A DNA stretch of 64,000 nucleotides from Sporopachydermia quercuum. Its lineage: Eukaryota; Ascomycota; Sporopachydermiomycetes; Sporopachydermiales; Sporopachydermiaceae. A program made the position numbers and the translations under genes. The stretch is from positions 66,138 to 130,137 of the forward strand of contig BCGN01000004.1 in the NCBI GenBank assembly GCA_001599295.1, read 5' to 3'. Positions 5,054 through 52,862 of the stretch are shown piece after piece. Numbering within the stretch: position 1 is the first letter of the stretch; the number at the start of each line of letters is the position of its first letter. The notes under the pieces were generated by a model. That model was not told where the DNA came from and did not search any database. It saw nothing but the letters and a program-made list of their open reading frames with translations.

Positions 5054-8000
5054 ATGAGCTTGTTTGAGCTTGATCCAAGCATACGCAGTCTGCTAACGAT
5101 TGACAACTTTCTGGTATGTATTGGATATAGCTTGATGATTAGAAAGAGATGACAGTGGTTGTTTTAATTGATACTACGTTGCCGCTGAACTTGCAAGGAT
5201 TATAGTTGCTATTGCCAATTGTGTGAGACTAACAAGCTTATTATCAAATCAATAGGGTAATTATACAGTAACAGAGTTCGTTGAATTACTGAGTAAATCA
5301 CATGAACTACCATCAACGGATTTCGAATCCCTGAAATGTATGTATTATATAATGATCAAAACTTTGAGTTGCTTGAAGGGAAGAGATAAACAGCTACAGG
5401 AAAATAATATGGTACGCTTGAATACTGTATCATCTTGACAAGCGTAGTGAATATGGTATCAAGTGTTTCTGTTAATTATTGCTATTCAACTTATAGTGCT
5501 ATAATACGCATAAATCGAGAGATTCAAGACTGGATTATGATGAGTGTTCTATTTTAGAGTACCAAATGTCATTAGGATTACTGGTTTAATGCCTGACTAA
5601 AAATGTTGCATGCTTGTTGCATAGTTCTAGCTGTTACTCTCATTTGACATGTTAATCATGTTAACTATCAATAACAGCCAATCTATTACTTCCGATCTAG
5701 AAAAGCTTTTTACTTTCTTTTTGTTATCAGCTCATCGTTTTTCTTTGCAAGATCATCAAAATTATTTTCTGCTAGCTCTTTCCTTGCTCATACCATTATG
5801 ACCTAATACTAATACTAACTTTGTTAGCACTTGACCCTAAACCTTATATCCGGTCTTTTGAAGCAACCTTAGAAGAATTGAGAAAGCTGCGCAGCGAAAT
5901 CCAACAACGAAAATCAAAATCAAAACAATCTGCCGAAGTCGTCGAATATGAACACAGTAAAAACGTGCTACGGCTAGCCTCTCATAGCAATGACCTTATG
6001 GACCAATTCAATCAATTAGATGGGCAACTATCTACAGCTTCTTCAGTAACAGTACCCATGAGCGACCGTTTAGAGAGAATTGCTAATTTGCGAAATAAAG
6101 AAAATGAGACTATATTTCTTATATCTTGTTATAAAGACTTCATGCAGGACGGAGGCAGCCCTGAGCTGAATAAACTGTGTACAGGTAATCTAGAAGAGAG
6201 AAAAAGATGTGCAAAGTTAGTGCAGGATCTCATGACGATCGCTGGGAAAGTGGCCATTGATGGTGTTGAATCTATCAAGAGTTCCGTTGAGAAGTTCGCG
6301 GAAAAGATGGAAAACGATTTGCTAAGTGATTTTGATCAAAGCTATCAAAACGGAGATCTCCTCATGATGAAGCAAGTAAGTGATATACTCTATGAATATA
6401 ACGGTGGAGGAAGCGCAGTCCAAATGTTTGTTAATCAACATGATTTCTTTATTGACACCAGTGAACTACAATCTGTTGACTCTGTGGAAAAGGATAGTTC
6501 ACTATATTGGGATAAACTGGCTGATCCATTTCAAACCGATTGGAAGTCACGTGATGAGCTCTTTTTAGGGACCGGAAATAGAGCTGAGAACGGCGGAAAC
6601 GATAATAACAAGAGTGAAACAACTGATAAAAGTGAGAAGAAGAATAGTAGTGATATGGGAAACAGTGATTTCTTAGGATTAGACGAACTTGTTACTACAA
6701 TCAAGTCGGAAACCCAAATCATCAAAGATATCTTCCGGAATCCGGCAGATGTGTTGAACGTTTTCATCCAAAGAGTGTTTGTTCAGAGAATTCAAGTGAA
6801 ACTAGCTAGCATTTTATCAGTAGCCCGATCGTATTCTGATTTGGCTTATCTCCGTTTATTATATGCTTCCTATGTCTCAGTAAGCAACTTCATTCAAGTA
6901 CTTAAAGACTTTATGAGCGCTGATGAAGATCTGGAGCCAGTTCTACGTGCTTTAGACCAAAACCTAATAGAACTATACTGGAGTTATGTTGAAGATGGCA
7001 GGTACTTTCAGCACGAAAAACAGACATTGCAGGATATCATCATCAAGATTCTTGAGCCGTTTAAAGAGAAATATACTTCTGTTAAGAAAGATAAGTACTC
7101 TCATAGCAGAGACAACTCTTTGGATAGACCGAACAGCATTGATGGCGGTGGAAGCTTCACTGACTTACAAAGTATTGGACGTGTGAACAGTAATTCTGGC
7201 AATAACGGTAATAGCAATGGCAGCAACAACAATAATAACGGTAACGAGACTAAACGTTCCTTCAGTCATTTCTCCCAGTATATGAAATCAAAACTCGATA
7301 GGGGAGCCTCCATGAAAAGAGATCGGATGCATATCAAAGGATATCCTGATTTCAACTATGACACAGTTGAAAAAATACTGAAAGCTGCAGTTGAATCTAC
7401 AGCACGTGGTGTTGAATTAGACCAGATAGCTGACCCTGAAGGAATCTACCTTTATAACCGAGGCGTAGAAATTCTAGAGCTATTAGTTAATGCGATTGGT
7501 TATGCTTATGTTAACGTGATGCTTCAGGTAGCTGTCACTCAGTCAAAACAAGATCCAAAAGCTGGATATGTTAGTCTGGCATATCTCCAGATAGTTGATA
7601 CCGTAGCTGGTATTTTGCATATTTTCTCAGTAACTGTTAGAACACTGTTTATGCCTTTGGTTGGTGATGCTCCAAATCTTAAAAAGAAAATGGCTTCAAT
7701 GGTTAATGAATTTGTTAGCCAAAGTGAATTTACTATTAACAATATTATCAAAGACACAGTTAATCTTTGCTTAGGCAGAATTGAAGTTCTATTAGGAAAA
7801 CAGGGTAAAAAGGACTTCTCAGGAAGTTCTAACGATACCATTGAAGATGATACTGTTGCATGTGAAGAAACTGTTATGTTCCTGACAGACGTCTATAATC
7901 AAGTACGAAGCTCAAATGCTTTGAATGGTAGAAATTTGAATAGATTTCTGTTTAAAATTGGACAAGGGTTCAAGGAGATTTTGTTGGAACATTTCACTAA

Positions 8001-12467: not shown

Positions 12468-15400
12468 ATGTTACCCAGAGGGAATCCATTGATAACAAGT
12501 CTTCTTCAACAGGATGCCGGACAAACTGAAGAGAAACCGTTACCCGGGGCTTCGGGGTTACTGAAACCTCAACCAGAAATCCTTGTACCTGTTCAGTACC
12601 CAGCTCTTCCTGATCTACCAGCAGTATCTAGTCCTATACAGTATAATGACTTGTCAGATAAACGAATGATCTTTTCATCTGAACCTGCGAGATCACAGCA
12701 CTTTAGTCGTTATTCTGAAGGAGATCTCTCGGATTCTGATGTCTCGGATATGTATAATATTTCACATGAGCCACCAGAGTCTCGAACAGGATATTATGAT
12801 CCTGTTAAGGACGTAGTAGAAAGAAGGGTTAAAGCTGAGATGACAACAGCTGTTGGAGGAGCTTCTAGAGCGAAACTTGATCCGCTGAAGATTACAAGCC
12901 TACTTTCTGATCCTGATATAGAACATGATGAAAAGGCTGTAAAGAGCCCCGGATTTGGAAGCAGTTCTCTGGTACCAATTGAGTTTCCAAAGACCCCTAG
13001 AGCAAAGTCACAAGTAGCTGATAAAGAACGCTTAACTAATGAGCCACTGGTATCCTATTCTACGCTCGAGAACTCTGCTAATGGGCAGAAGACTGTTAGC
13101 GAAGCAAGGGTTCAGTCGCAATCTTTAAATTCACTCTTGGAGGTTGATCCTACCACAAGTAGATTCAACATTTCAGAAAAGAAATCTCTCCAGCATAGAT
13201 TTGAGCAACGAGAGCTTCAATTCTTTAGTATTGATGCGTCACAGTCATCAGGGATTGATCTGTTGCTAGAAGCGGCGGAAACTGATAGTAAGCCACAACC
13301 AGACGGTTCTAATGCAACTATAGAAATTTATAACGAGGCCAACGACGAGGGTAATGGTAATGGTAATAATAATGATTATGATAATGATAATGATGATAAT
13401 AACGATGGTAATAATGATGTTCAACTACAAATTGATAATGTTTCCGAAGATTCCAAATTGTCTACTGCGCCATCTGAGCCTCCAAAAGTTAAGCGGGTAA
13501 TAATTNCTATTGAGGATGATGATCCCGAGCCACCTACAAAGTCTGATATGTTTGAGGAAACCTTTGAAAAGTCTCATCAAAATACCGATATAACTCAATC
13601 GAGGCGGCAACTGGAACCACTGTTGGAGTCACGAGAAAACCCCCAACTAAAGGCTCCGAGACAAGCCACGAAGGCTATTGCCACACCAAAAGCTGTCCCA
13701 AAACGTCATACAAGAAATGCACCGCGCTCGGTGTCTCCACAGCAACAAACAGACGTGTCTTTAAATGAATCCCCAAACAAACGTTCAAAACGAAAATCAA
13801 GAGCCCAAACAAGAGATAATTTAAACTCGGAAATCTTATTTGATTTCAATCACCAACACGAACTTATCCCTTTGAAAGAAGATTTGCTGATTACATCGTA
13901 CAAATCATTACCCATAGACACTCAACGACGAAAGGCATCAAGTTCTAAGAATAGAATAGCCCTACCTGTCAATCTGAGAATATTCTCGTGGTCAGATGAC
14001 GAGGAGACAAGTGGGGATGAAAAGCGAGGTATAAAGAAAGAAGCGGAGCGAGAGGGGTATGGGGGGTATGGATCAGTCGATGTCAAGAGTGAGATTACAA
14101 CGGAAAGCTGTAATGACTTTAGAAAAAGTGAAATTAATACTAATGATTGCGGTATAGATATTACTATTAGAGGTAGCGATGAGGCTAGGACTGATGTTAT
14201 ACCTGGTAAGGAGAGTAGTACTATACTTGAATCTAGTAGTTCTGGCGGTGGCAATAAGAGTACTAGCTCGAATACTAGCTCTAATATGACTTTTGATACT
14301 GTTTCTGTTGCACATTTGGATATTGAAGGTGCTACAGTGACTACCTTGAGACAGGAAGAAAACCCCATAGCAACTGGCGTTATCGATTCTGCTGCATTTT
14401 CTACTGTCATCAACAAAAGAGCTTTTGCTGTTAATGTTGGTGGGAACCATAATTTTCATACTGCTAGCTCAACTAGTATCAACGATTCAACGATTACAAC
14501 CTCCACAGCTGCTAGCAATGATTTATCTGTTGATCGTATAAATGTTTTTGGTTCTAAGGCTCTATCAGCTTCGAATAGCCCTAACAGTGATAGCAGTAGC
14601 ATTAATTCTGCACTTTTACGGCCAGTTACATTTTCTAATACTAAGCCTGCTGGAAACATACAGGTAACCACATTTTCCACCAAAACGCCAAAAACTCTTA
14701 ATACTGATGTTCAGAAAGCTCCCTCTACGCAGTCTACTATCAACACATCTATTACACGTTTGACTCCTGATAAAAAACATTTACCTAGAAATACCAAACG
14801 GAAGAATGTTCCTTTACACGATCCTCTCGGTGATGACGTATATTTACCTTATCACAGGCAAATGCTAAGAAGGGAAGCACGGCTGGTATCAATAGAGAAA
14901 GCCACAATTGACTTGGAAATGCAGAACTATGAAAATATTTTGGCAATACTAACAGAAACTGATGATTGGTCAAAAATATGCAAAATACTGCCAAAGTATA
15001 CTGTTATCAATGGCCTTAGTTATGAAGATGATGGTGATAATGATAGTAGTAATATTAGCATAGATAAAACTACTGATAGTATTAATACTGCTAGCTCCAG
15101 TCACGATAAAGGAAGCATTACTTGTACTAATTCTTTAGCTAACAAGAATAATAATGTACCTGCTTCATCTGCTGACACTGCTACCAAACAGAACGCTCCT
15201 AGTACCATCAATTTGCAAGAAGAAATGGAAATTAAGTACAATAAAACAGTCGAAGAACTGAATAGAATCATCAGTAAGTTCAAAGAGTTTCGGAAAACTG
15301 AAAAGCTGTTTAACGAAGTGTATAAATGTATTGAGAATGGTACGTTTGATCTTGAGAATAAACAGTACAGTAAATATGCAATTCTATCTGGTATTTATGA

Positions 15401-17495
15401 GGATTTAGAGCGATTTGTTGATACAGTAGTAAAGAGCAAAAATGATACTAGGAAGAGGACTCCTAAAAGTTTAATTGCTAGTGGAAATGCCAGTAGTAAT
15501 GGTACTAGTAGTTCTATTAGCAGTATTAGTGATAAACATACTAACGGTACCAGTAATAATGGTAACATTAGTGGCAATAGTGTATCTAGTACTGCTGGAA
15601 CTCCTGCTGGTGGTAGAAATTCAGCTGCTGGTTCTTCTAGTACCCCTAGCAGCGCATCTAAGTATTCACAGACACCATCAGGTAATTCGCATGCTGGCAA
15701 TGGTAGTAAACAGAAGCAAAAGGTCGGGAGAAGTGTGTTTGGTTTCAAATTACCAAGGGGGTTTAGAAGTTTCAAGCAAGGAAAGATGTCTGCTGATAGT
15801 GCTGGTTCGGTGATTGCAAGCCCTTGTAGTTCTGGCACTAGTACTGCTGGTAGACGTAAGCGTAAGACGAAAGCTATGGAAGAGAACCATTATGCGTTTG
15901 GTTCTTGGATTCCTGATCCATTGGAAGAAAGCCATAGTAATTTTGGGAACTATTTGGGCAGAAAAAGTGGAGTTAACGGAGGTTTCATTACTAATGTTGC
16001 TATTGATGGTAGAAATAGTATAGGTGTTTCTGCTGCTAGTAACACCAATAGTGCTAGTAGTGTTATTCATAATGACAGTACACACAGTGAAAATAGTACG
16101 TTGAGAAGAGTTCGTGATGTTACAGCTAGTATTGCTGGCCCTGTTGACAATGAGCCTGGTTCCGGTGGTACCTCAATTGCTTCCTCTAATGAACCGTCGG
16201 GAAATAGCAGAAATGATAATATCATCAGTCCTAAAAAAATTAATGAAATCAAAGACAAGGCTATTGTTATCGACGACGCAAATCAGCTACTATGTCCTAT
16301 TGAACTAACTGTTCCTACTAATGTTCCTACTAGTGTTCCTACTGTTCCGGCTGCCCTTGCTACTCAGCCTTTAGCCACACAACAGAAAATCTCCTTTCTA
16401 CCATTTACTCTTCCTCAAAGATGGATTTCTGATTATTACAGACCAAATATTTTCATCCATAACGGGAAAAATTTCCATGGGCTGTCTGCCACCAAACTGA
16501 GCGAAGATTTCCGAGCGGTTATTGTCTCCTCTGGCTCCCAACAACGGCTAGGCTATAAAACAAAGAAACAAACAAAGAAAAGATCAGTCTTGAAACTGTC
16601 ACCAGTTCTCAGAAGAATAGTAGAAAAGAATATAAAGGATAGAAGGTGTAAAAGCTTTACTCATTTTTTTGGTCCCTCTCTGAATGACTTTGATGAGGAC
16701 GTATATAATTCTTACTCTATCTGGGATAGTTCTAGGGGACGGATTGGTGGTGCGCCCGGTAACGCAGGTATAGGAGATAATGGGAACGATTCAGGGGAAA
16801 TTAGTACAGAAGTTGGAACAGGAAGTCGAAGGATAATAATTACCACGGATGGTAAATATGGTACCAAGTCTTCTAGTTCAAGACTATCCCAACGAATCTC
16901 ACCTAAGAGAGCTAAGAGTCTAAAGAGTTCACCCAAGAAACGCCGAAGAAGCCTCATAGAACAGAAAGAGGTTTCAGCCGAGCCAAAGAAAAAGAAAAGG
17001 CTTGAACTTAAAGTTATTAAATCAAACAAATACCATGAAGAAACTACCGTTTCCGGCAGCTCCAGCAGCAGGATGAAAAGCAGCAAATTTCTAACAAAAA
17101 AATGCCTATTGCCGATAAAACTTGTGATACGAGAATCATCGGTGTCTCCGGGTGGTGACGGAAATAATAATGGGGCTACCAATATTGCAAAGAAATCTAA
17201 AGGTGTTGCTTTTGATGGGGGATCTAGCTCTTTTAAGGTTACACCCAGTCGAACCAAACCAAGGAAAGCGAGTATCAGCTCTAAAATGAAGAAGACAACA
17301 ACTGAAGGAGAACCACCGGAGAGCAGTGAGGATGATGGGGCATTCGAAGGTGAAGCCGCTGGGTCGGCCAATACATCCGAAAGCGAGTGTTACGAAACTG
17401 CCGGCGAGAAGGAAGAAAGCCTAAATGAGCGTGAGAGCGATTGGGGTCCTGAAGAAATTGAGAACGATGGAGTAACACCTAAAGAGAAACCGTGA
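12468..17495 (+). CDS. Very long Ser/Asn-rich protein with SAS4-like domain
   Basis: 1675 residues in the primary frame, mostly disordered and rich in Ser, Asn, Asp, Lys. The one folded-looking block (about residues 784-945) has DDVYLPYHRQMLRREARLVS, then DDWSKICKILPKYTVING and, after a low-complexity insertion, ELNRIISKFKEFRKTEK. This spacing resembles the SAS4 domain (Y..HR...R.E; DW; KF..FR..E) of the SAS-I histone acetyltransferase scaffold; I give this as a family resemblance from memory, not a search. A second ordered stretch around residues 1310-1430 has FLPFTLPQRWISDYYRPNIF and FTHFFGPSLNDFDEDVYNSY. Basic Lys-rich patches towards the C-terminus could be nuclear localisation signals. 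S. cerevisiae Sas4 is only about 480 residues, so this would be a greatly expanded homologue. The reading frame closes at a TGA that is probably not the true end (see 17476-17787). One N lies at 13506. Confidence 0.55.
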   Translation: MLPRGNPLITSLLQQDAGQTEEKPLPGASGLLKPQPEILVPVQYPALPDLPAVSSPIQYNDLSDKRMIFSSEPARSQHFSRYSEGDLSDSDVSDMYNISHEPPESRTGYYDPVKDVVERRVKAEMTTAVGGASRAKLDPLKITSLLSDPDIEHDEKAVKSPGFGSSSLVPIEFPKTPRAKSQVADKERLTNEPLVSYSTLENSANGQKTVSEARVQSQSLNSLLEVDPTTSRFNISEKKSLQHRFEQRELQFFSIDASQSSGIDLLLEAAETDSKPQPDGSNATIEIYNEANDEGNGNGNNNDYDNDNDDNNDGNNDVQLQIDNVSEDSKLSTAPSEPPKVKRVIIXIEDDDPEPPTKSDMFEETFEKSHQNTDITQSRRQLEPLLESRENPQLKAPRQATKAIATPKAVPKRHTRNAPRSVSPQQQTDVSLNESPNKRSKRKSRAQTRDNLNSEILFDFNHQHELIPLKEDLLITSYKSLPIDTQRRKASSSKNRIALPVNLRIFSWSDDEETSGDEKRGIKKEAEREGYGGYGSVDVKSEITTESCNDFRKSEINTNDCGIDITIRGSDEARTDVIPGKESSTILESSSSGGGNKSTSSNTSSNMTFDTVSVAHLDIEGATVTTLRQEENPIATGVIDSAAFSTVINKRAFAVNVGGNHNFHTASSTSINDSTITTSTAASNDLSVDRINVFGSKALSASNSPNSDSSSINSALLRPVTFSNTKPAGNIQVTTFSTKTPKTLNTDVQKAPSTQSTINTSITRLTPDKKHLPRNTKRKNVPLHDPLGDDVYLPYHRQMLRREARLVSIEKATIDLEMQNYENILAILTETDDWSKICKILPKYTVINGLSYEDDGDNDSSNISIDKTTDSINTASSSHDKGSITCTNSLANKNNNVPASSADTATKQNAPSTINLQEEMEIKYNKTVEELNRIISKFKEFRKTEKLFNEVYKCIENGTFDLENKQYSKYAILSGIYEDLERFVDTVVKSKNDTRKRTPKSLIASGNASSNGTSSSISSISDKHTNGTSNNGNISGNSVSSTAGTPAGGRNSAAGSSSTPSSASKYSQTPSGNSHAGNGSKQKQKVGRSVFGFKLPRGFRSFKQGKMSADSAGSVIASPCSSGTSTAGRRKRKTKAMEENHYAFGSWIPDPLEESHSNFGNYLGRKSGVNGGFITNVAIDGRNSIGVSAASNTNSASSVIHNDSTHSENSTLRRVRDVTASIAGPVDNEPGSGGTSIASSNEPSGNSRNDNIISPKKINEIKDKAIVIDDANQLLCPIELTVPTNVPTSVPTVPAALATQPLATQQKISFLPFTLPQRWISDYYRPNIFIHNGKNFHGLSATKLSEDFRAVIVSSGSQQRLGYKTKKQTKKRSVLKLSPVLRRIVEKNIKDRRCKSFTHFFGPSLNDFDEDVYNSYSIWDSSRGRIGGAPGNAGIGDNGNDSGEISTEVGTGSRRIIITTDGKYGTKSSSSRLSQRISPKRAKSLKSSPKKRRRSLIEQKEVSAEPKKKKRLELKVIKSNKYHEETTVSGSSSSRMKSSKFLTKKCLLPIKLVIRESSVSPGGDGNNNGATNIAKKSKGVAFDGGSSSFKVTPSRTKPRKASISSKMKKTTTEGEPPESSEDDGAFEGEAAGSANTSESECYETAGEKEESLNERESDWGPEEIENDGVTPKEKP

Positions 17496-17787
17496 ACGGA
17501 AATCTGAAATAAAACGTAGAAGTGCATCTGGAAGTGGCAAGAAAAAGGTCAGCAATGGGGTTGTTGGTGATGAAGCAGATGCTTATATTGAGAGTGATAG
17601 CGATAGTGATAGAAGGAGTAGGAAAGGACAAAATATTGATTTTGTTGTCGATGATGAAGATCAAGTTAAATTTTATGATGATGAGGAAATGGGAGATAAG
17701 TTAATTCGTTTAGAGAAACGGCTGAAGAAAAAAAGAAAGAGTAGCCTGTTTAAGGTAAGGCTTTCAAAGTCGTCAAATAGGCTGTGA
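17476..17787 (+). CDS. C-terminal +1-frame extension of the SAS4-like gene
   Basis: Directly overlapping the end of the long frame, the +1 frame is open from 17476 to a TGA at 17785-17787. Read from 17491 it gives about 98 further residues with the same style as the upstream C-terminus: RERKSEIKRRSASGSGKKK, DAYIESDSDSDRR, IDFVVDDEDQVKFYDDEEM, then LIRLEKRLKKKRKSSLF. It has no start codon near its beginning. The junction (...AAA CCG TGA ACG) places CCG followed by TGA at the point of change. An intron is unlikely because the overlap is under 20 nt. It is therefore either a programmed +1 shift, a one-base assembly/sequencing error, or a real recent frameshift. Confidence 0.6.
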   Translation, partial: HLKRNRERKSEIKRRSASGSGKKKVSNGVVGDEADAYIESDSDSDRRSRKGQNIDFVVDDEDQVKFYDDEEMGDKLIRLEKRLKKKRKSSLFKVRLSKSSNRL

Positions 17788-18882
17788 GCGCTGTGGTATG
17801 GGGACAGCAATTTGATAGTCGTCCGATAAGCTTCAACTCACACGTCAAAATGGAACCTCAATTGTACTTATTTACCCTCTACTAACTGTTCATTGATATC
17901 GTTTGATTACACACTTAGTTATACATTTATATCTACAAAATTTCTGGCAATTCTCTCATTCTATCGACTTTCATGAATGAACATTATTACCTCCGAAATA
18001 GAATATAAATCGGAAATATAACTGGATTGTCCTTTCCGGAATTTCATCCTCTCTTATCTAAGCCCTTGAAGAACTCATAATTACTAATCCATCTTCTCAG
18101 ATGAATATAAAAGATAACAAATATATCACTAGCAAATATTCACTTTTAGCATTAAACCTACATAAACTAGTAATAAACTAACTCTATATCTTAATTTATC
18201 TGCCAAATCCATCATCTTTCACGTATATATCTCACTGTTAATACCATCCGCTCCTCCCCTTGTAACTTATGGTAATCTTGGCCAAGCCTGGGAAATTCCG
18301 GAAATTATCCTCCCTTTTTTGTCGGACGTAGAAGATTCCAATATAACACTATTCATCACCTAGCAATGTCAGAATAAATGCGGTATTACAAGCAAACGAG
18401 GAAAATCCCCTCATCAGCAGTTTAATATAGTCATAACCTTGTCAACAATTTAATATAATCATGACCTTGTCAATAATATAAATAGGATCAAATAATCCTT
18501 TAATCTTTTGTTCGTAGTACAGTTATATAGCGGAAGTATAAAATAGCTTCAAGGCATGCAAATATATCGGAATATATTAGAGTTTCCATAGTATAGCATT
18601 TGTCCGATAAAGACAAGTGTCCGAAAACAAAATGTCAGAATCAAATTATTATCACTAACCAAGAAACACAAACATGTACTTTTAGCCAATGTACGTAAAT
18701 CGTCTTTTTGGCTTATCATCATATTTATTCCGACAATGCTATTATAATAATAGAAATGCTCTGATTTTAGTGGTAATAACGGCAGAACTTCCAGGGACTC
18801 AATTGAAAGGAATTGAGCTAAACTAGGAGTTAATAGAATGAATATGATTATGCAAAAGTAGACAAGAACACATTATTTCATT
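17788..18882. other. Intergenic, SAS4-like to PGAP2-like
   Basis: About 1.1 kb, AT-rich, with several TTCCGGAA-like words and a two-copy 28-bp direct repeat at about 18421-18477 (unit contains TCATRACCTTGTCAA). No coding or RNA gene recognised. Contains the upstream region of the PGAP2-like gene. Confidence 0.5.
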
Positions 18883-29784: not shown

Positions 29785-32700
29785 CTATATATCATTCTCA
29801 CCAAGAATCTGTTTTGACAGTATAACAATTCTCTCTAATTCCCTCGTGACACCAGTGAACTCTCTAGAAAACGCCATACCATAGACTGTACGCCAATGCT
29901 CATATTCATACTTGGCTTCCCTTTCTCTATCAGCAACATCTTTATTACTATCTCCCAACGTCTCGTAGATACTGTTGCGATGACTGTTGTTAGCACTATC
30001 ATCAGCAGTACTAGGTGTATTACCTTTACTATTACCATCGACCAAACCTCCAATCACAGTAGCAACTTGCTGGTCAGCTTTCCATATTTCCAGATCTGCT
30101 ATAGCATCAAACAATCTTTTTCTTGCCATAACAACCCCTGGCAGATATCTAGGCACTGAGCATCTCATAGTGAAACAATTGCCTAAACAATACAGCACAA
30201 ATATAACAGATGCTACAGCATCTCTTCTATAAGATAACAAAGCTCTTGTTGTTTCTTCGTCTTGGTCATTCTCATAAACGTGAAAATATGATCCTGTGAT
30301 ACGTGCTTCTATCATTTGCTGTAGAACATTCTCACAGGAATTCAACAAATGCCTATAAGGTGTAATATTAAATGTACCTCTTAACGAAAACTCATGTTTG
30401 GTGAGTCTCAGCAAATCTCTAACAGCAAACAAATACTGAACAGTTCTGACTTCTCGAATATGGGCCAGTTCTAATGTTAACCCCGTTGGATCATCATCGT
30501 GATCTCGATATAAATATCTATCAGCAATAGATCTATAACTGTGAGATAAATGATTCAACGTAGCAGCTATACCATCCATCAATTCAAGCCGTGGCACAAA
30601 TGGCCATACCATCCATCCGGATAGAACAGCAATAACCATGCCAATAAATACTGCCAATGACTGAGTCCAAACCTGAGTAATTAACGTTTGATGCGATTCA
30701 TTATCAACTATTATATTTACTGTGACTATTGTAAATGTCAATAATCCCAATAACGCTGACCTTGGATACGCAGTTAAAATGTATCTATAAATCAACGGAA
30801 CAGAAATAATTAATGCAAATATAGAAACCACATATCCATTTGCATTAATTATTCCATCAGAATTTTTGTAATGAAATCTTGCCCTAATACTTAATCCCGC
30901 CCAAATAGCGGAAACGATCCAAAATGCGCTTCTCACCAACAAATCATACCAACTGCCAGAAACAATTTGTTTCATAAACAATAAACCCATCAAAGGGGCA
31001 ATCCAGCAGCGATATTTTTCATACCAACCATAACTCTGAGGTAGGAAACCAGGAAGTAGAAGTAGGATTTCGATTACTGCGAATTTGATCGANAATTTGG
31101 ATTCTTCACCGTTTAGTGTATGGAAAATCAACCATAATTTATATGAGAACGTAGTTGTATCTAGCGCTCTCGCATCGAAATCACTACGATCAACAGCTCT
31201 TATCGCAGGGGTCGCAGTTGCAGCGCCAGAGCTATGAACAACAGGAATCTCGGTTTCTGCGTGTCTTGATGTATTCACGTTATAAATTCTTTCAATAGCA
31301 TCTTCAACGTCCCTTTGAGACTGTCTGAAATTAAACGCTGTTTCACTTCCCTGATCGTGTAGTAATCTTCTGGACACTCTATTCAATGATCTTCTCAGCG
31401 GATAATAGGGAATATTTAAATAGTACTTGCCAATCTTAATGCTTGTGTTTTTATGATCTTCTTCGCATATTTTGATGAATTTCTTACCAATAGCTACAAT
31501 TTCCTTAGCTGATTGACGGCAGTATCTTACATACAAAAAGATATCAACGATTGTTGGATCTTCAGTGAAACTAGTACTGAACATGTCACTTTTGGTGAAT
31601 TCGAGGTATGCTTTATCAAGGATATGTACCTTATCGATTAGACGCTTGATTGTTTGTTGCAAATCACTAACTGTTGGGTCCTTGGAAAGATTAGTAGCCT
31701 TAGGCAGCTTTTTCATTAATAGGATTGATTTGCATAATTGAATCACAGCAAGCATTAATTCAATCATGTGAATTGTTGGTGATTCAAAAATCGATTTCAG
31801 TTCTGTAATGACTATCATATTGGTTCTTGCTTTCGTTTGAACGGTAGTGTCATTAAGTGAAGATACGTTGACATACGACTGGTTTCTTGATGCTGCTGGC
31901 GACCCAATTGGCGAATTAATGGCAGAATTGATGGGGGAATTCTTAGAAGAGAATAAACCAGATTGACTAGGAGATAAGGGGAAAAAATGATCATGCAGTA
32001 AATATGAACGTTCCATTTTGAAGTTTCTTCTATTTTTCTCGTTATTAATCAATCTATCACCAACCGTTTCGTTTGGATTAGAATTAGTAGTATTTCCATC
32101 ACCAATATTACTAGAGTAAACATCAAATCCTCTAAACAGTATACATCTACTAGGTAGAGCTCTTAGTGGGCCAATCAGCACTTGGATGCTATTTCTGATC
32201 AATTTCAAATCATCCTCTGAAATTATAGTAAACGTGAACTCGTTATTCAGATCACGGAACTTCTCAGAAATAGTAACAGAGACCCAATTTAACTGTTTCT
32301 GAGAATTAAACATTCGAATATCACCTTCATCTTGACTCATACTAGTAACAATTGCTTCTTCTAGTATAGAAAAGGAGTTATGTAAACCTGTTATTATATC
32401 TGTATTACCAAANTCTGGTACTGCCAAATTGACAGCCAAAGACAGAATTACACCAAACACGTATGGNACTACAGAATCAAACACTGAGCTTCTCCAATAG
32501 ATTTTTCCTGGTTCAATGGAGTAAGTATCCCTGCTATTAGATACACCACATATGAACAAAAGCATGAATAAGGCCGAGGTCAGAAGATGGAACAGTCTGG
32601 GATAATGACATCTAATCCAGCAGAAAACAAAAGCTCCAAGGACAAACGAACTGGCTTTGATTCCCATATTGCCAGAAATATGCCCAGCAGTGTGNGAGGC

Positions 32701-33987
32701 AATTAAAAGTGTGATGGAGCTCCAGCAAGTACCTACGGCTGTTCCAATGATCGACTGCAGTGTTAGTTCTATTTGAGAGCCGGAGGTGTGAGCAGGATGA
32801 TGAAGAATGACAGATAAAGGTAGGATGAAGCTATGGGAGCCAAGCCATGAGTTGACAGGTANTATAACAGATAGGATGAAAGCAACCATATAGGCTATGA
32901 TGAATTTCAGTAAGAATAGCAAATTTTGTATTCTTGGTTGGTAGATAGAAGTGTTGACGTAGAAATCCAGGGATGGGAAATTATGCTGCATGTTCTTTCT
33001 GAACGATGCAAAAAGGCTAGTCAGAAAGGACTCTGAGGACGGAGGCTCATTTGGAGGCCCATTTGGAGACTCTTTTGGGGGCTCATTTGGGGGCTCATTT
33101 GGGGGCTCATTGGAATGCCTATTAGAATGCTTATTAGAATGCTTATTAGGAAGTTTAAATGGAGAGTCACCAGCANACTTGGTAGTATTAATACCAGCTT
33201 TATCATTATAGCCCGTACTGTTCCGCCTGTTNTTTCTATGCCTCAATCCATGATTTGCATGCTTCCCATTCCTATCAGCCTCTCTATACTCTTCCACCTT
33301 ATTGATAGTCCCACTCTTGTGTGGTGGATATANAGCATCAAAAAACCCATCTCGTAGTTCTTCCAACCCGTATTGATTGAGACCTTCAGTATCTATTTTC
33401 AAGCCGAGCACCAGCTCATTCAACTGAACCTGAGAAGCTGATGTCCTTGGGGAAACTCTCCAGCCATGCTTTTTATGAAAGGGAACTGCGGGCGACGCGA
33501 ATCTTGTATGCACAGCATTACTGTTGATATATAGGTTATCGTAAGATGAGGCTCTACTTGGAAAAGCGCTATCAGATGCATTCGTTGAGAATCCTGATTG
33601 GAAATTAGCCATACTATTGTCTGCAGTAAGGGGATTTATATACCCAAAATTTGTATGGCTGCCGTTGTTGCTATTGCCAGGGAATGAAGGATGTAGAGAC
33701 AGGTATGATCCTGCATGATAAGAGCCAAGATGAGACGATAGCCCTGGTCTATCAGATTGGTTATTCAATTGTAGGTTTTGGAAAGAGCTTCTAGCTGAAC
33801 TTAGTAGTCTTTTATGCTGATGCTGATGTAAGTGAGAATCGTTACTTTCATTGGAAGCACTATTGATATCATCGCTTTTGCTCTTGTTGTCTTGTCTATT
33901 GGCACCGGAAACTGACTGAAGGATGTCGCGCGAAGAATCATCGCCAAGCTCAAACTTGGCCTTCCCCAGTTTTCTTTGTTTATCCAT
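29785..33987 (-). CDS. BRE4/YGL140C-like multi-pass membrane protein (aromatic-acid exporter family)
   Basis: 1400 residues. A Ser/Asn/His-rich cytosolic N-terminus (1-330) is followed by a first membrane block (about residues 355-530), including LLFLLKFIIAYMVAFILSVI and HSFILPLSVILHHPAHTSGS. A long soluble middle segment follows, then a second membrane block (about 985-1140), and a DUF2421-like C-terminal domain with MDGIAATLNHLSHSYRSIAD. This arrangement (putative ER transporter N-terminal 6TM, FUSC-like, DUF2421) is that of the fungal BRE4 and YGL140C proteins, which are poorly characterised and linked to brefeldin A sensitivity in BRE4. The N-terminus contains two adjacent 12-bp minisatellites (33041-33148). 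Seven N bases fall in this gene, all giving single X residues. Start ATG at 33987; no intron found. Transport substrate unknown. Confidence 0.85.
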   Translation of the reverse strand: MDKQRKLGKAKFELGDDSSRDILQSVSGANRQDNKSKSDDINSASNESNDSHLHQHQHKRLLSSARSSFQNLQLNNQSDRPGLSSHLGSYHAGSYLSLHPSFPGNSNNGSHTNFGYINPLTADNSMANFQSGFSTNASDSAFPSRASSYDNLYINSNAVHTRFASPAVPFHKKHGWRVSPRTSASQVQLNELVLGLKIDTEGLNQYGLEELRDGFFDAXYPPHKSGTINKVEEYREADRNGKHANHGLRHRXNRRNSTGYNDKAGINTTKXAGDSPFKLPNKHSNKHSNRHSNEPPNEPPNEPPKESPNGPPNEPPSSESFLTSLFASFRKNMQHNFPSLDFYVNTSIYQPRIQNLLFLLKFIIAYMVAFILSVIXPVNSWLGSHSFILPLSVILHHPAHTSGSQIELTLQSIIGTAVGTCWSSITLLIAXHTAGHISGNMGIKASSFVLGAFVFCWIRCHYPRLFHLLTSALFMLLFICGVSNSRDTYSIEPGKIYWRSSVFDSVXPYVFGVILSLAVNLAVPXFGNTDIITGLHNSFSILEEAIVTSMSQDEGDIRMFNSQKQLNWVSVTISEKFRDLNNEFTFTIISEDDLKLIRNSIQVLIGPLRALPSRCILFRGFDVYSSNIGDGNTTNSNPNETVGDRLINNEKNRRNFKMERSYLLHDHFFPLSPSQSGLFSSKNSPINSAINSPIGSPAASRNQSYVNVSSLNDTTVQTKARTNMIVITELKSIFESPTIHMIELMLAVIQLCKSILLMKKLPKATNLSKDPTVSDLQQTIKRLIDKVHILDKAYLEFTKSDMFSTSFTEDPTIVDIFLYVRYCRQSAKEIVAIGKKFIKICEEDHKNTSIKIGKYYLNIPYYPLRRSLNRVSRRLLHDQGSETAFNFRQSQRDVEDAIERIYNVNTSRHAETEIPVVHSSGAATATPAIRAVDRSDFDARALDTTTFSYKLWLIFHTLNGEESKXSIKFAVIEILLLLPGFLPQSYGWYEKYRCWIAPLMGLLFMKQIVSGSWYDLLVRSAFWIVSAIWAGLSIRARFHYKNSDGIINANGYVVSIFALIISVPLIYRYILTAYPRSALLGLLTFTIVTVNIIVDNESHQTLITQVWTQSLAVFIGMVIAVLSGWMVWPFVPRLELMDGIAATLNHLSHSYRSIADRYLYRDHDDDPTGLTLELAHIREVRTVQYLFAVRDLLRLTKHEFSLRGTFNITPYRHLLNSCENVLQQMIEARITGSYFHVYENDQDEETTRALLSYRRDAVASVIFVLYCLGNCFTMRCSVPRYLPGVVMARKRLFDAIADLEIWKADQQVATVIGGLVDGNSKGNTPSTADDSANNSHRNSIYETLGDSNKDVADREREAKYEYEHWRTVYGMAFSREFTGVTRELERIVILSKQILGENDI
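33041..33148. repeat. Two abutting in-frame 12-bp minisatellites
   Basis: Six units of GGGGGCTCATTT type (33041-33112) encode NEPP/KESP/NGPP repeats on the minus strand. They are followed without a gap by three units of GAATGCTTATTA (33113-33148) encoding N(K/R)HS repeats. Both keep the reading frame of the BRE4-like gene. Confidence 0.95.
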
Positions 33988-50393: not shown

Positions 50394-51764
50394 CTAAGCA
50401 GTAGGTGCAGGTTTAGGCTAGTATGAGAGGTTAGCAAGAGCTGCAAGTCGCGACTGGTTGTATGCTGGTTTGTAGATAGATCGGAGGTTATGGAATGTGA
50501 ACTCAAATACTTACAGGTTCGGAAGCAGCTGCTACAGCTTGAACTTCATTCTTTTCTTTACCACCGAGGCTGTACGATGTGTTAGTAAAAGAAATGGAAA
50601 AGGAGTGTAAACAAATTGATTGCAAGAGTAGAAGAATACATACTACCAATAGTTGAGCCATCTTGAACCTTGGATTAATTGAGATGTTTCATTGATTGCA
50701 TGACAAGCAAATAATAAAGGATTGACTGGAGTAATAGAGACCCTATGACAGTTAGTATTGGTTTTGAAGTAAAACATAAGAGAATAATACAGGGTGAAAT
50801 GACAGTTAAATAGGGAAGACGCTAAGCAGCTATTAATGAAGCTACNCAGTCATCAACAGTATTTATATCAAATCAGCATGAGTTTCAAATCGTCGCATAC
50901 GAGTATTTCATGAAAACCAAAGAGTAAATGATCAATGAACCTGTCATTGGACCAGAAATCAACTGAGGGTCTTTCTTGATATCATAAATTGCAGCCAAAG
51001 GAATACCAAAATTAGAGACAGGTCCTGATTTGGCTAGTTAGTATTAATGATAGTAGGAAATAAGTGGATGTTTGTCGTGCAATCGGTTATGTTTATTATA
51101 GCAATGGTATAGCAGCGACAGATAGAGCTTTTTGCAGGTTTGAAGAAGTTTATCAGTAGACCTGAATTTGTATCAAAGGAGCATGCTCTCATGATAATAA
51201 TTAATATAAGGTATTCTCAGCTCATAAGTTGTCTCAAACATTGAGTTTACATTTGAATAAGAGTATAGCAAAAAAATACTGATAGCTCTTAATGCCATAT
51301 CGAACCTGTTCTTATCTACTATTGGTATCTTCTCACATATGGTGCCCTATTCCTTTCTTTCACTATCTTGCTGTTTAATATAACCTTTCAAAGAATTTTC
51401 CACAGCTCACCCTCTACCATTGCAATATACAGCTCATCAATTCTCTCACGAACGAAACACTTGTTATTTCAACATACCCCAAAAATGTGTGGAGCAGATG
51501 TCTATCAACAAAAAAAGCACAGAAGAGACATCAGTAGTTAGTAATCAAACTATTAAACTTCTTTTTGAAAGCTAAGCCGTTATTCCTATATTATTATGTA
51601 CATCATTCACATACACCTTGAGCATCTGTTAGTACAACGTCTACCAATCAATTAATTGTACAGTAACATTCAGTTACACTTCAACTCCATGACCAAAAAA
51701 CATACTTCACAAAATCCTTGCTGAATACAAAGTTCTTTGCTTTATTGAAAAACTGTGATGACAT
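50394..51764 (-). CDS. MPC1: Mitochondrial pyruvate carrier subunit Mpc1, seven exons
   Basis: Exons (minus): 51764-51706, 51625-51615, 51501-51478, 51024-50901, 50742-50644, 50569-50515 and 50417-50394. They join in phase to 131 residues, against 130 in S. cerevisiae. Diagnostic sequence: YICSTHFWG / [39 protein letters not shown], then [20 protein letters not shown] and RWLNYW. Mpc1 pairs with Mpc2 or Mpc3 in the inner mitochondrial membrane to import pyruvate. Six introns interrupt fewer than 400 coding bases. Exon 2 is an 11-nt microexon, required because exon 1 ends in phase 2 and exon 3 needs phase 1. Introns have GTATGT/GTATGC/GTAAGT donors and TACTAAC branch points; intron 1 ends TACTAACAG with no spacer. 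The last exon adds PKPAPTA; reading through the sixth intron would instead end EPVSI. Exons 3-6 are secure, the first two and last are model-dependent. Confidence 0.9.
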
Positions 51765-52862
51765 TTTGCAGAACTATAGAAGGCAATTGATGGAATTATG
51801 ATATAACTGTCTTGATCCTAAGCTGCTGATGCGGTTAGTAAAGAAAATAAGGATGTGAATGCTAAAGTAAAATTCCTCTGTTGGGTGCATAATGCTTATT
51901 ATTATTTGTGGTAGAATGACAATGGATAATGTTACAAACTAAATGGTGATTATTACACAATCATATCATTCACAAACGAAAATTAAACCAACCACAAAGC
52001 ACAATCATTGAGCAATACAGAAATAACAAACATACCAATTAATTACGCCCTTGAATACTGATATATCTGTGCTCGGTCAATTCATACACTGCACTCTGCG
52101 TTCCTTTTCAACATAGTATAGCTTCGACTACAATATATCAAAAGATACATTTGACTATCTATACCTTGAAAATTGTTCCTTCCCCATATATGTTACATTC
52201 ATCTGGATAAATAAATCATGTTGCAAAACGATTGAGGGGCATTCTTACTACTTTCAAATGTTTGAAGACTATTAGCTTGATAAATTTGTGTTCACATAAT
52301 ATCAATATAGATACTTATTCCGGAAACGATATTCTGGTACTGGTTCTTTTACTCAACATATGATCTCCGTTATTTGTTATCATCTATTCTTTGGCCAAAC
52401 AACCTCCAAGGATAACCAACAACAATATTAACCAGAGTAGCCTGCTTATATCCTGCCATTTTCATTGCAGTGATGTTGTTATGGGATTATTGAACCTATT
52501 AAAGTGATATTGGTACTTTCTGGTTAATTCGACGAACTGAATATGCTCCCAATTCTCAGCTATCATATCCTCTATTCTCAAACCTAATCAGCCATTCTGT
52601 TGTATGATGAGATAGCAAGCTGTATAATTACATTAGAACTACGCTCAACAATTAAACAAGAACGCGGGAGACTACTCAAAGGAATAAGTTATAATCAATA
52701 GACACTTTACTATTAAATAGAGTTAAATCGAACCAGTGAATGTGGAATAGCCCCATCCATAGCAAGCTCATCAACAGCATAACTTTGTCTCTTACTATGC
52801 TACATCACTCCACCGAGTAAATCACAACATCAACAGTACAATTCACGCAAAAAAGATCAACA
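51765..52862. promoter_or_regulatory. Divergent promoter region MPC1 / AMSH-like
   Basis: 1.1 kb AT-rich interval between divergent genes. No recognised binding motif or additional gene. Confidence 0.5.

Follow-up and report, generated by a model that had tools for sequence, protein, structure and literature searches.

Few chromosomal genes with a +1 frameshift have been described in Saccharomyces cerevisiae, to go by the excerpts of two accounts from 2025 (PMC12661321, PMC12719033). EST3, ABP140, YFS1 and LLP1, together with the Ty1 element, use CUU_AGG_C or CUU_AGU_U; among the sites named in those excerpts, a stop codon occupies the A site only at antizyme. The shift site of the S. cerevisiae antizyme gene, OAZ1, is GCG_UGA_C and that of the Kluyveromyces waltii antizyme is CCG_UGA_C; K. 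waltii has a tRNA-Ala(CGC) without a corresponding tRNA-Pro (both points from the excerpted text of PMC5009743). The C that follows the UGA is typical of such ‘shifty stops’ and does not define them: in human antizyme the base is U (PMC9841425, excerpt). Here we consider a candidate of the same type in the yeast Sporopachydermia quercuum. It lies near the end of a SAS4-like gene in a stretch of 64,000 nucleotides (nt) from contig BCGN01000004.1, called the window below (G000:C4:66138-130137, within a 16.39-Mb genome of 12 contigs). The junction, CCG_TGA_A, is on balance probably a programmed +1 frameshift site of the antizyme type.

With the K. waltii antizyme this site shares the P-site codon CCG and the absence of the same tRNA-Pro, as far as the excerpt of PMC5009743 goes. 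It differs from yeast OAZ1 in belonging to another gene and in having A, not C, after the stop; it also stands near the coding end, where the zero-frame product is nearly full length, and shifting at SAS4 is predicted here from sequence. The sites of EST3, ABP140, YFS1, LLP1 and Ty1 likewise serve +1 shifting in yeast, in chromosomal genes or in a transposon, but they combine a leucine codon with a slow sense codon, whereas the SAS4 site has a stop; neither heptamer of the Ty1/EST3/ABP140 type, CUU_AGG_C or CUU_AGU_U, is found at the junction. A search of one collection of papers returned none linking Sas4 to programmed frameshifting in yeast.

Two coding frames at the end of a SAS4-like gene

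The first open reading frame (ORF1) matches the SAS4 domain PF15460 at 49.2 bits, against a curated cut-off of 24.4, over positions 1-63 of the 99-position profile (amino acids 785-851). The match is one that it has in common with Sas4, a subunit of the SAS-I H4K16 acetyltransferase complex, and the SAS4-like identity given in the original prediction is upheld by it. A PDB search with ORF1 brought only two matches, with E about 0.4. The S. cerevisiae protein has 481 amino acids; the protein encoded here has 1675 or more.

Recomputed frames agree with the layout first described: a zero frame of 1675 codons ending at the TGA, a continuation of about 98 codons in the +1 frame (ORF2) in the same charged style, and an overlap of 17 nt. 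A TAA at 17473-17475 precedes ORF2, and the +1 frame is then open to 17784; counted from the GAA at 17494, the extension has 97 codons, of which 26 are Lys or Arg and 20 Asp or Glu. The junction reads AAA CCG TGA A. Joined, the two frames would give a product of about 1772 residues, and the break falls within the final 6% of the joined coding sequence. The extension had been said to have no start codon. That holds for its first 65 codons; after these comes an internal ATG (17689-17691), the only one in ORF2. The second frame is thus in the +1 relation to the first and has no start of its own at its beginning, the arrangement of the shifty-stop class.

The frame change is also seen in codon usage. 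Scored as codon log-odds in 90-nt windows, the zero frame stands at 11-14 bits from about 17280 to 17490, and the +1 frame at 10-14.5 bits from 17490 to 17730, with noise after; usage changes frame at about 17490 without a gap, and each frame is coding on its own side of the junction. Two irregularities accompany this picture. The zero frame dips at about 17040-17160, with a low of -3.3 bits at 17040-17130, a part in which a different frame, itself close to stops, does slightly better; and at about 17670-17820 it has a short high-scoring stretch, in which each window contains 3-6 stops. For ORF2 the score is 28.2 bits (83 codons), a value reached by 0.8% of 4571 open non-coding windows and at least equal to that of 89% of 21476 real coding windows; windows in both sets overlap and are not independent. 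When 42 ORFs of at least 200 amino acids were followed past their stops in the alternative frames, the longest of the 84 continuations was 97 codons, the length of the ORF2 extension, and the next was 65. The +1 continuation is more than chance, and the observation of a frame change at the end of ORF1 is confirmed as real.

tRNA supply and the genome's own antizyme

The codon before the stop had been proposed to be weakly read, and the tRNA genes agree with this. A pattern search of the genome with up to three mismatches found no tRNA-Pro(CGG), with the reservation that a more diverged gene could escape it. The same pattern recovered two tRNA-Pro(UGG) and three tRNA-Pro(AGG) genes, identified by reading their anticodon loops; ARAGORN called the latter three tRNA-Ser, probably owing to their introns. 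A tRNA-Ala(CGC) is present in the genome, and the scan of tRNA loci showed five tRNA-Glu(UUC) genes. CCG itself is one of the less used codons, at 91 of 22,373. Such a codon seldom lands before TGA when a frame is broken at random: among 23007 junctions made by simulated one-base insertions, CCG-TGA occurred in 0.2%, GCG or CCG before TGA in 0.4%, and TGA preceded by any of six codons that occur at known shift sites in 4.5%.

One antizyme gene (PF02100) is found in the genome, at C9:595342-595698 (locus L072). Its ORF0 ends CGC TCC TGA A and the antizyme domain continues in the +1 frame; the shift there is assigned by homology. The two sites are alike in the form NNN_TGA_A, in the +1 codon GAA, and in encoding D-G-x-T nine to six codons before the stop (DGQTADWRS in the antizyme). 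The glycine at the compared flank position is common to both; the flanking residue is found in neither. They are unlike in that the antizyme has TCC as its P-site codon, its domain after the shift, and an overlap of about 80 nt. Human antizyme 1 also has TCC in the P site (UCC_UGA, in the excerpt of PMC9841425); S. cerevisiae has GCG.

The likeness extends into the flanking nucleotides. Aligned on the TGA in a fixed register, with the shift codon left out, the SAS4 and antizyme flanks agree at 23 of 45 positions (p 0.00035 against random in-frame coding windows; p 0.00245 against local SAS4 codons). Across six window sizes, p ranged over 0.00035-0.00355 for random coding sequence and 0.0011-0.00885 for local codons; the downstream flank taken by itself, 10 of 15 bases identical, gave p 0.002. 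In a first test, which used 11 window sizes and drew on three sets of gene positions, p lay between none in over 1200 positions and 0.0435. As a lead, the flank likeness supports an antizyme-like reading of the junction. The NNN-TGA design of antizyme genes had been suggested from the start; the tRNA survey and the genome's own antizyme site strengthen that suggestion, and the frameshift reading is therefore stronger than the letters alone showed. The regulated choice between two C-termini, also put forward at the start, is so far a hypothesis, so that the original interpretation is supported in part.

If the junction works as an antizyme-type site, the steps might be as follows: the ribosome would hold a wobble or near-cognate tRNA-Pro on CCG, as the tRNA survey suggests; the TGA, followed here by A and not by the weak-context base C, would be decoded slowly enough for competition; tRNA-Glu would then enter the +1 codon GAA without slippage in the P site, as at GCG-like sites (PMC12661321, excerpt). 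Termination would yield 1675 residues, and shifting about 1772 with the charged 97-codon tail, as follows from the frames.

Table. Features of the SAS4-like locus and of the antizyme gene of the same genome
Feature	Position	Strand	Remarks
ORF1, zero frame, SAS4-like protein	12468..17495	+	ATG 12468 to TGA 17493-17495, 1675 aa
SAS4 domain, first part (profile positions 1-63)	14820..15020	+	computed from amino-acid positions
SAS4 domain, weak second part (profile positions 64-96)	about 15213-15311	+	E 0.033, below cut-off
5' flank with putative shift codon	17463..17492	+	encodes NDGVTPKEKP; DGxT in antizyme register
ORF2, +1 frame	17476..17787	+	103 codons stop to stop; stop TGA 17785-17787
Proposed shift heptamer CCG_TGA_A	17490..17496	+	CCG in P site, TGA stop in A site, GAA as +1 codon
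3' flank	17496..17510	+	10/15 bases identical to the 3' flank of this genome's antizyme
Antizyme gene with TCC_TGA_A junction	L072 2437-1495	-	PF02100; ORF0 ATG at L072 2437

Programmed shift, broken gene or intron

The case for a shifty stop draws on the frames, the coding signal on both sides of the junction, the lack of an intron signal, the failure to find a matching tRNA-Pro, and the likeness to antizyme sites. That shifting occurs, how frequent it might be, its being under selection and any role of the tail are inferences.

Several considerations weigh against it. After the TGA comes A, where the antizyme sites of S. cerevisiae and K. waltii have C; in human cells UGA_C terminates less well than UGA_U (PMC9841425, excerpt). 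No stimulatory RNA structure is predicted near the site in five windows (z +1.39, +1.14, +1.57, -0.35 and +0.94). For the 97-residue tail a Pfam search up to E 1 gave no match, and a search of the genome found no second copy of it. The flank likeness was spotted before it was tested, and the p values flatter it; the upstream flank by itself is modest (13 of 30 identical, p 0.029), and three of the 11 windows in the first test reach p of only 0.02-0.04. The known EST3 frameshift seems to be absent from this genome, in which the EST3/TPP1 domain (PF10341, positions 7-151 of 158) lies in one open frame of 376 codons (G000:C3:470882-471364 (-)). The frame scan used to count breaks elsewhere, described below, saw no coding segment at its positive control, the antizyme locus L072, and is therefore blind to weakly biased genes. 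The site itself is known here from the sequence of a single genome. Finally, the site stands near the end of a long protein that appears to be disordered, the place where chance truncation is tolerated best, and a recent mutation or an allele would look no different from a programmed site.

The strongest rival places an indel within the 17-nt overlap, in the assembly or in one of two alleles; the gene would normally be a single frame of about 1772 codons. We regard this as unlikely, but as a serious contender. The original prediction had named a single-base assembly error as the main alternative; it is still serious, and is now joined by an allelic difference, for the Ns of the assembly look heterozygous. 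In 164 kb there are 78 runs of N, 77 of one base and one of two; the window holds 25 isolated single Ns; and the 30 that fall in coding segments of the 164 kb are distributed as 18 at codon position 3, nine at position 1 and three at position 2. These single Ns look like collapsed heterozygous sites, not random failures. A heterozygous indel could therefore hide in the consensus, collapsed silently. That the junction lies in 6.4 kb without an N has no bearing on heterozygosity, as 37% of bases are in N-free runs of that length. An indel would also account for the way in which both frames join into one charged sequence style. Against it, the overlap has no homopolymer longer than three bases; a random insertion would yield CCG-TGA with the rarity given above, and the antizyme-like flank would then be a coincidence.

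How often frames break in this assembly bears on the same question. A codon Viterbi model with shifts was run over 163,863 contiguous bases, the window plus 100 kb of the same contig. With a penalty of 14 the only shift was the SAS4 junction; with 10 it was joined by three weak places (four shifts), in every one of which one segment or more scored no higher than 0.5 bits; with 18 no shift appeared anywhere, the SAS4 junction included, because closing and reopening a gene cost equally. A further 60 loci of about 3 kb each, together 182,602 bases and in part overlapping one another or the window, gave no event when those with a segment at -5 bits or below were filtered out; an unfiltered rerun, with the antizyme and tRNA-Pro loci added, gave one weak event at penalty 10 (L057, segment -6.7 bits) and none at 14. 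The coding segments covered came to 74,199 bases in the contiguous stretch and 60,501 in 56 of the small loci, about 135 kb. No other clear frame break was found in that coding sequence, and simulated single-base indels were detected in 236 of 300 trials, for segments recognised by the model; this too argues against an indel at the junction.

A second count came from protein families. A genome-wide protein-kinase search scored 104 regions, with 116 matches, and inspection by eye showed matches in different frames at three places. At two of these the gaps are of at least 95 bases, as introns would give. At the third, G000:C12:224644-225493, kinase matches in two frames lie 7 nt apart with stops inside: an intron-containing gene or a broken copy. 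With partial matches left aside, this last is the one possible break among the kinase regions. The kinase census is soft, as many matches are partial and some contain in-frame stops. A search for the MFS family, in which nine of 82 candidates were scored, made a poor census of frame breaks. Unprogrammed breaks look rare, at a level still compatible with tens per genome, which leaves room for an indel. We put unprogrammed breaks, by judgement, at perhaps some tens in a genome, and new programmed sites of the stop type at about one or less; we also judge that random insertions would yield GCG-TGA or CCG-TGA roughly 100-fold less often than these junctions occur among the stop-type sites of yeasts.

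A further rival is that a real frameshift mutation of recent date, whether fixed or still segregating, has cut off a disordered tail that the protein can do without. CCG-TGA might then leak some +1 product by accident, and the shift would be ‘restorative’ rather than programmed. The position of the break so near the end of the joined length, and a tail that is charged and matches no domain, agree with this; a young change would also leave the codon signal of the tail intact. Yet the rare codon, the absent tRNA and the antizyme-like flank would all have to be coincidental, and we think a recent mutation improbable. Assembly error, allelic indel and recent mutation, taken together, amount to a sizeable possibility that stops short of probable.

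Least likely of all, to the point of being nearly dismissed, is an intron or a separate downstream gene that joins or explains both frames. TACTAAC is over-represented in the window (30, against 7.85 expected), and introns are probably common. Between 17100 and 17790, however, there is neither a CTRAY branch-point motif nor a GTANGT donor; of the 46 GT-YAG pairs that span 35-500 nt and would keep the frame, not one contains a branch point; and the coding signal reaches the junction and resumes at once, which leaves little room. An intron at the junction is very unlikely, and was rejected on the absent branch-point motif and the little room. It had been excluded earlier on the ground that the 17-nt overlap is too short to hold one. 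That argument fails, as an intron need not fit inside the overlap; the conclusion probably stands, on the absent branch point and the continuous coding signal. An independent downstream gene could start at the internal ATG at 17689, but 65 of the 97 extension codons come before it, and this candidate too was rejected. Plain readthrough of the TGA was discarded, as it would reach a further TGA in the zero frame three codons on.

Gene neighbourhood and biological meaning

A gene for a calcineurin-like phosphoesterase diverges from the SAS4-like gene; we take it to be CDC1-like, and the arrangement to be that of SAS4-CDC1 in S. cerevisiae. Other yeast-like genes in the window include those for an SCC2-type cohesin loader, SEC10, an SSB-type Hsp70, RIO2, RTT106 and eIF2A, the yeast names being those we presume to apply. 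Several candidate introns, with GTAAGT or GTATGT and TACTAAC, occur elsewhere in the window. A possible intron lies near the end of ORF2 (GTAAGG 17755, TACTAAC 17880, TAG 17918); the sequence beyond is not coding-like. The SEC10 ORF (5114-5998) starts at position 55 of its N-terminal profile, and an upstream exon with a TACTAAC intron (5813, TAG 5827) is likely. Six clustered TACTAAC motifs with several GTATGT donors at 50532-52035 (-) suggest a multi-intron gene. On the same strand, 29785-33987 (-) encodes a 1400-aa protein with no Pfam match at E 0.001; by eye it has hydrophobic stretches, like a multi-spanning membrane protein. Eight of the 25 Ns of the window fall in this gene, at 31093-33333.

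Should the junction prove to be only an allele or an assembly error, its value would be that of a documented look-alike. As a candidate antizyme-type site it offers a clear test of the rule by which a stop becomes shifty when the P-site codon before it has no tRNA of its own. A broader proposal, which we hold to be doubtful, is that this is a second antizyme-type shifty stop, possibly polyamine-sensitive and set in antizyme-like flanks, that fixes the ratio of two Sas4 C-termini. If that were true, a second shifty-stop gene would have been found, in a chromatin factor, and the question would arise whether cassettes of this kind are used more than once. H4K16 acetylation and silencing could then respond to polyamine level or to termination efficiency; the question would become whether either of them regulates chromatin.

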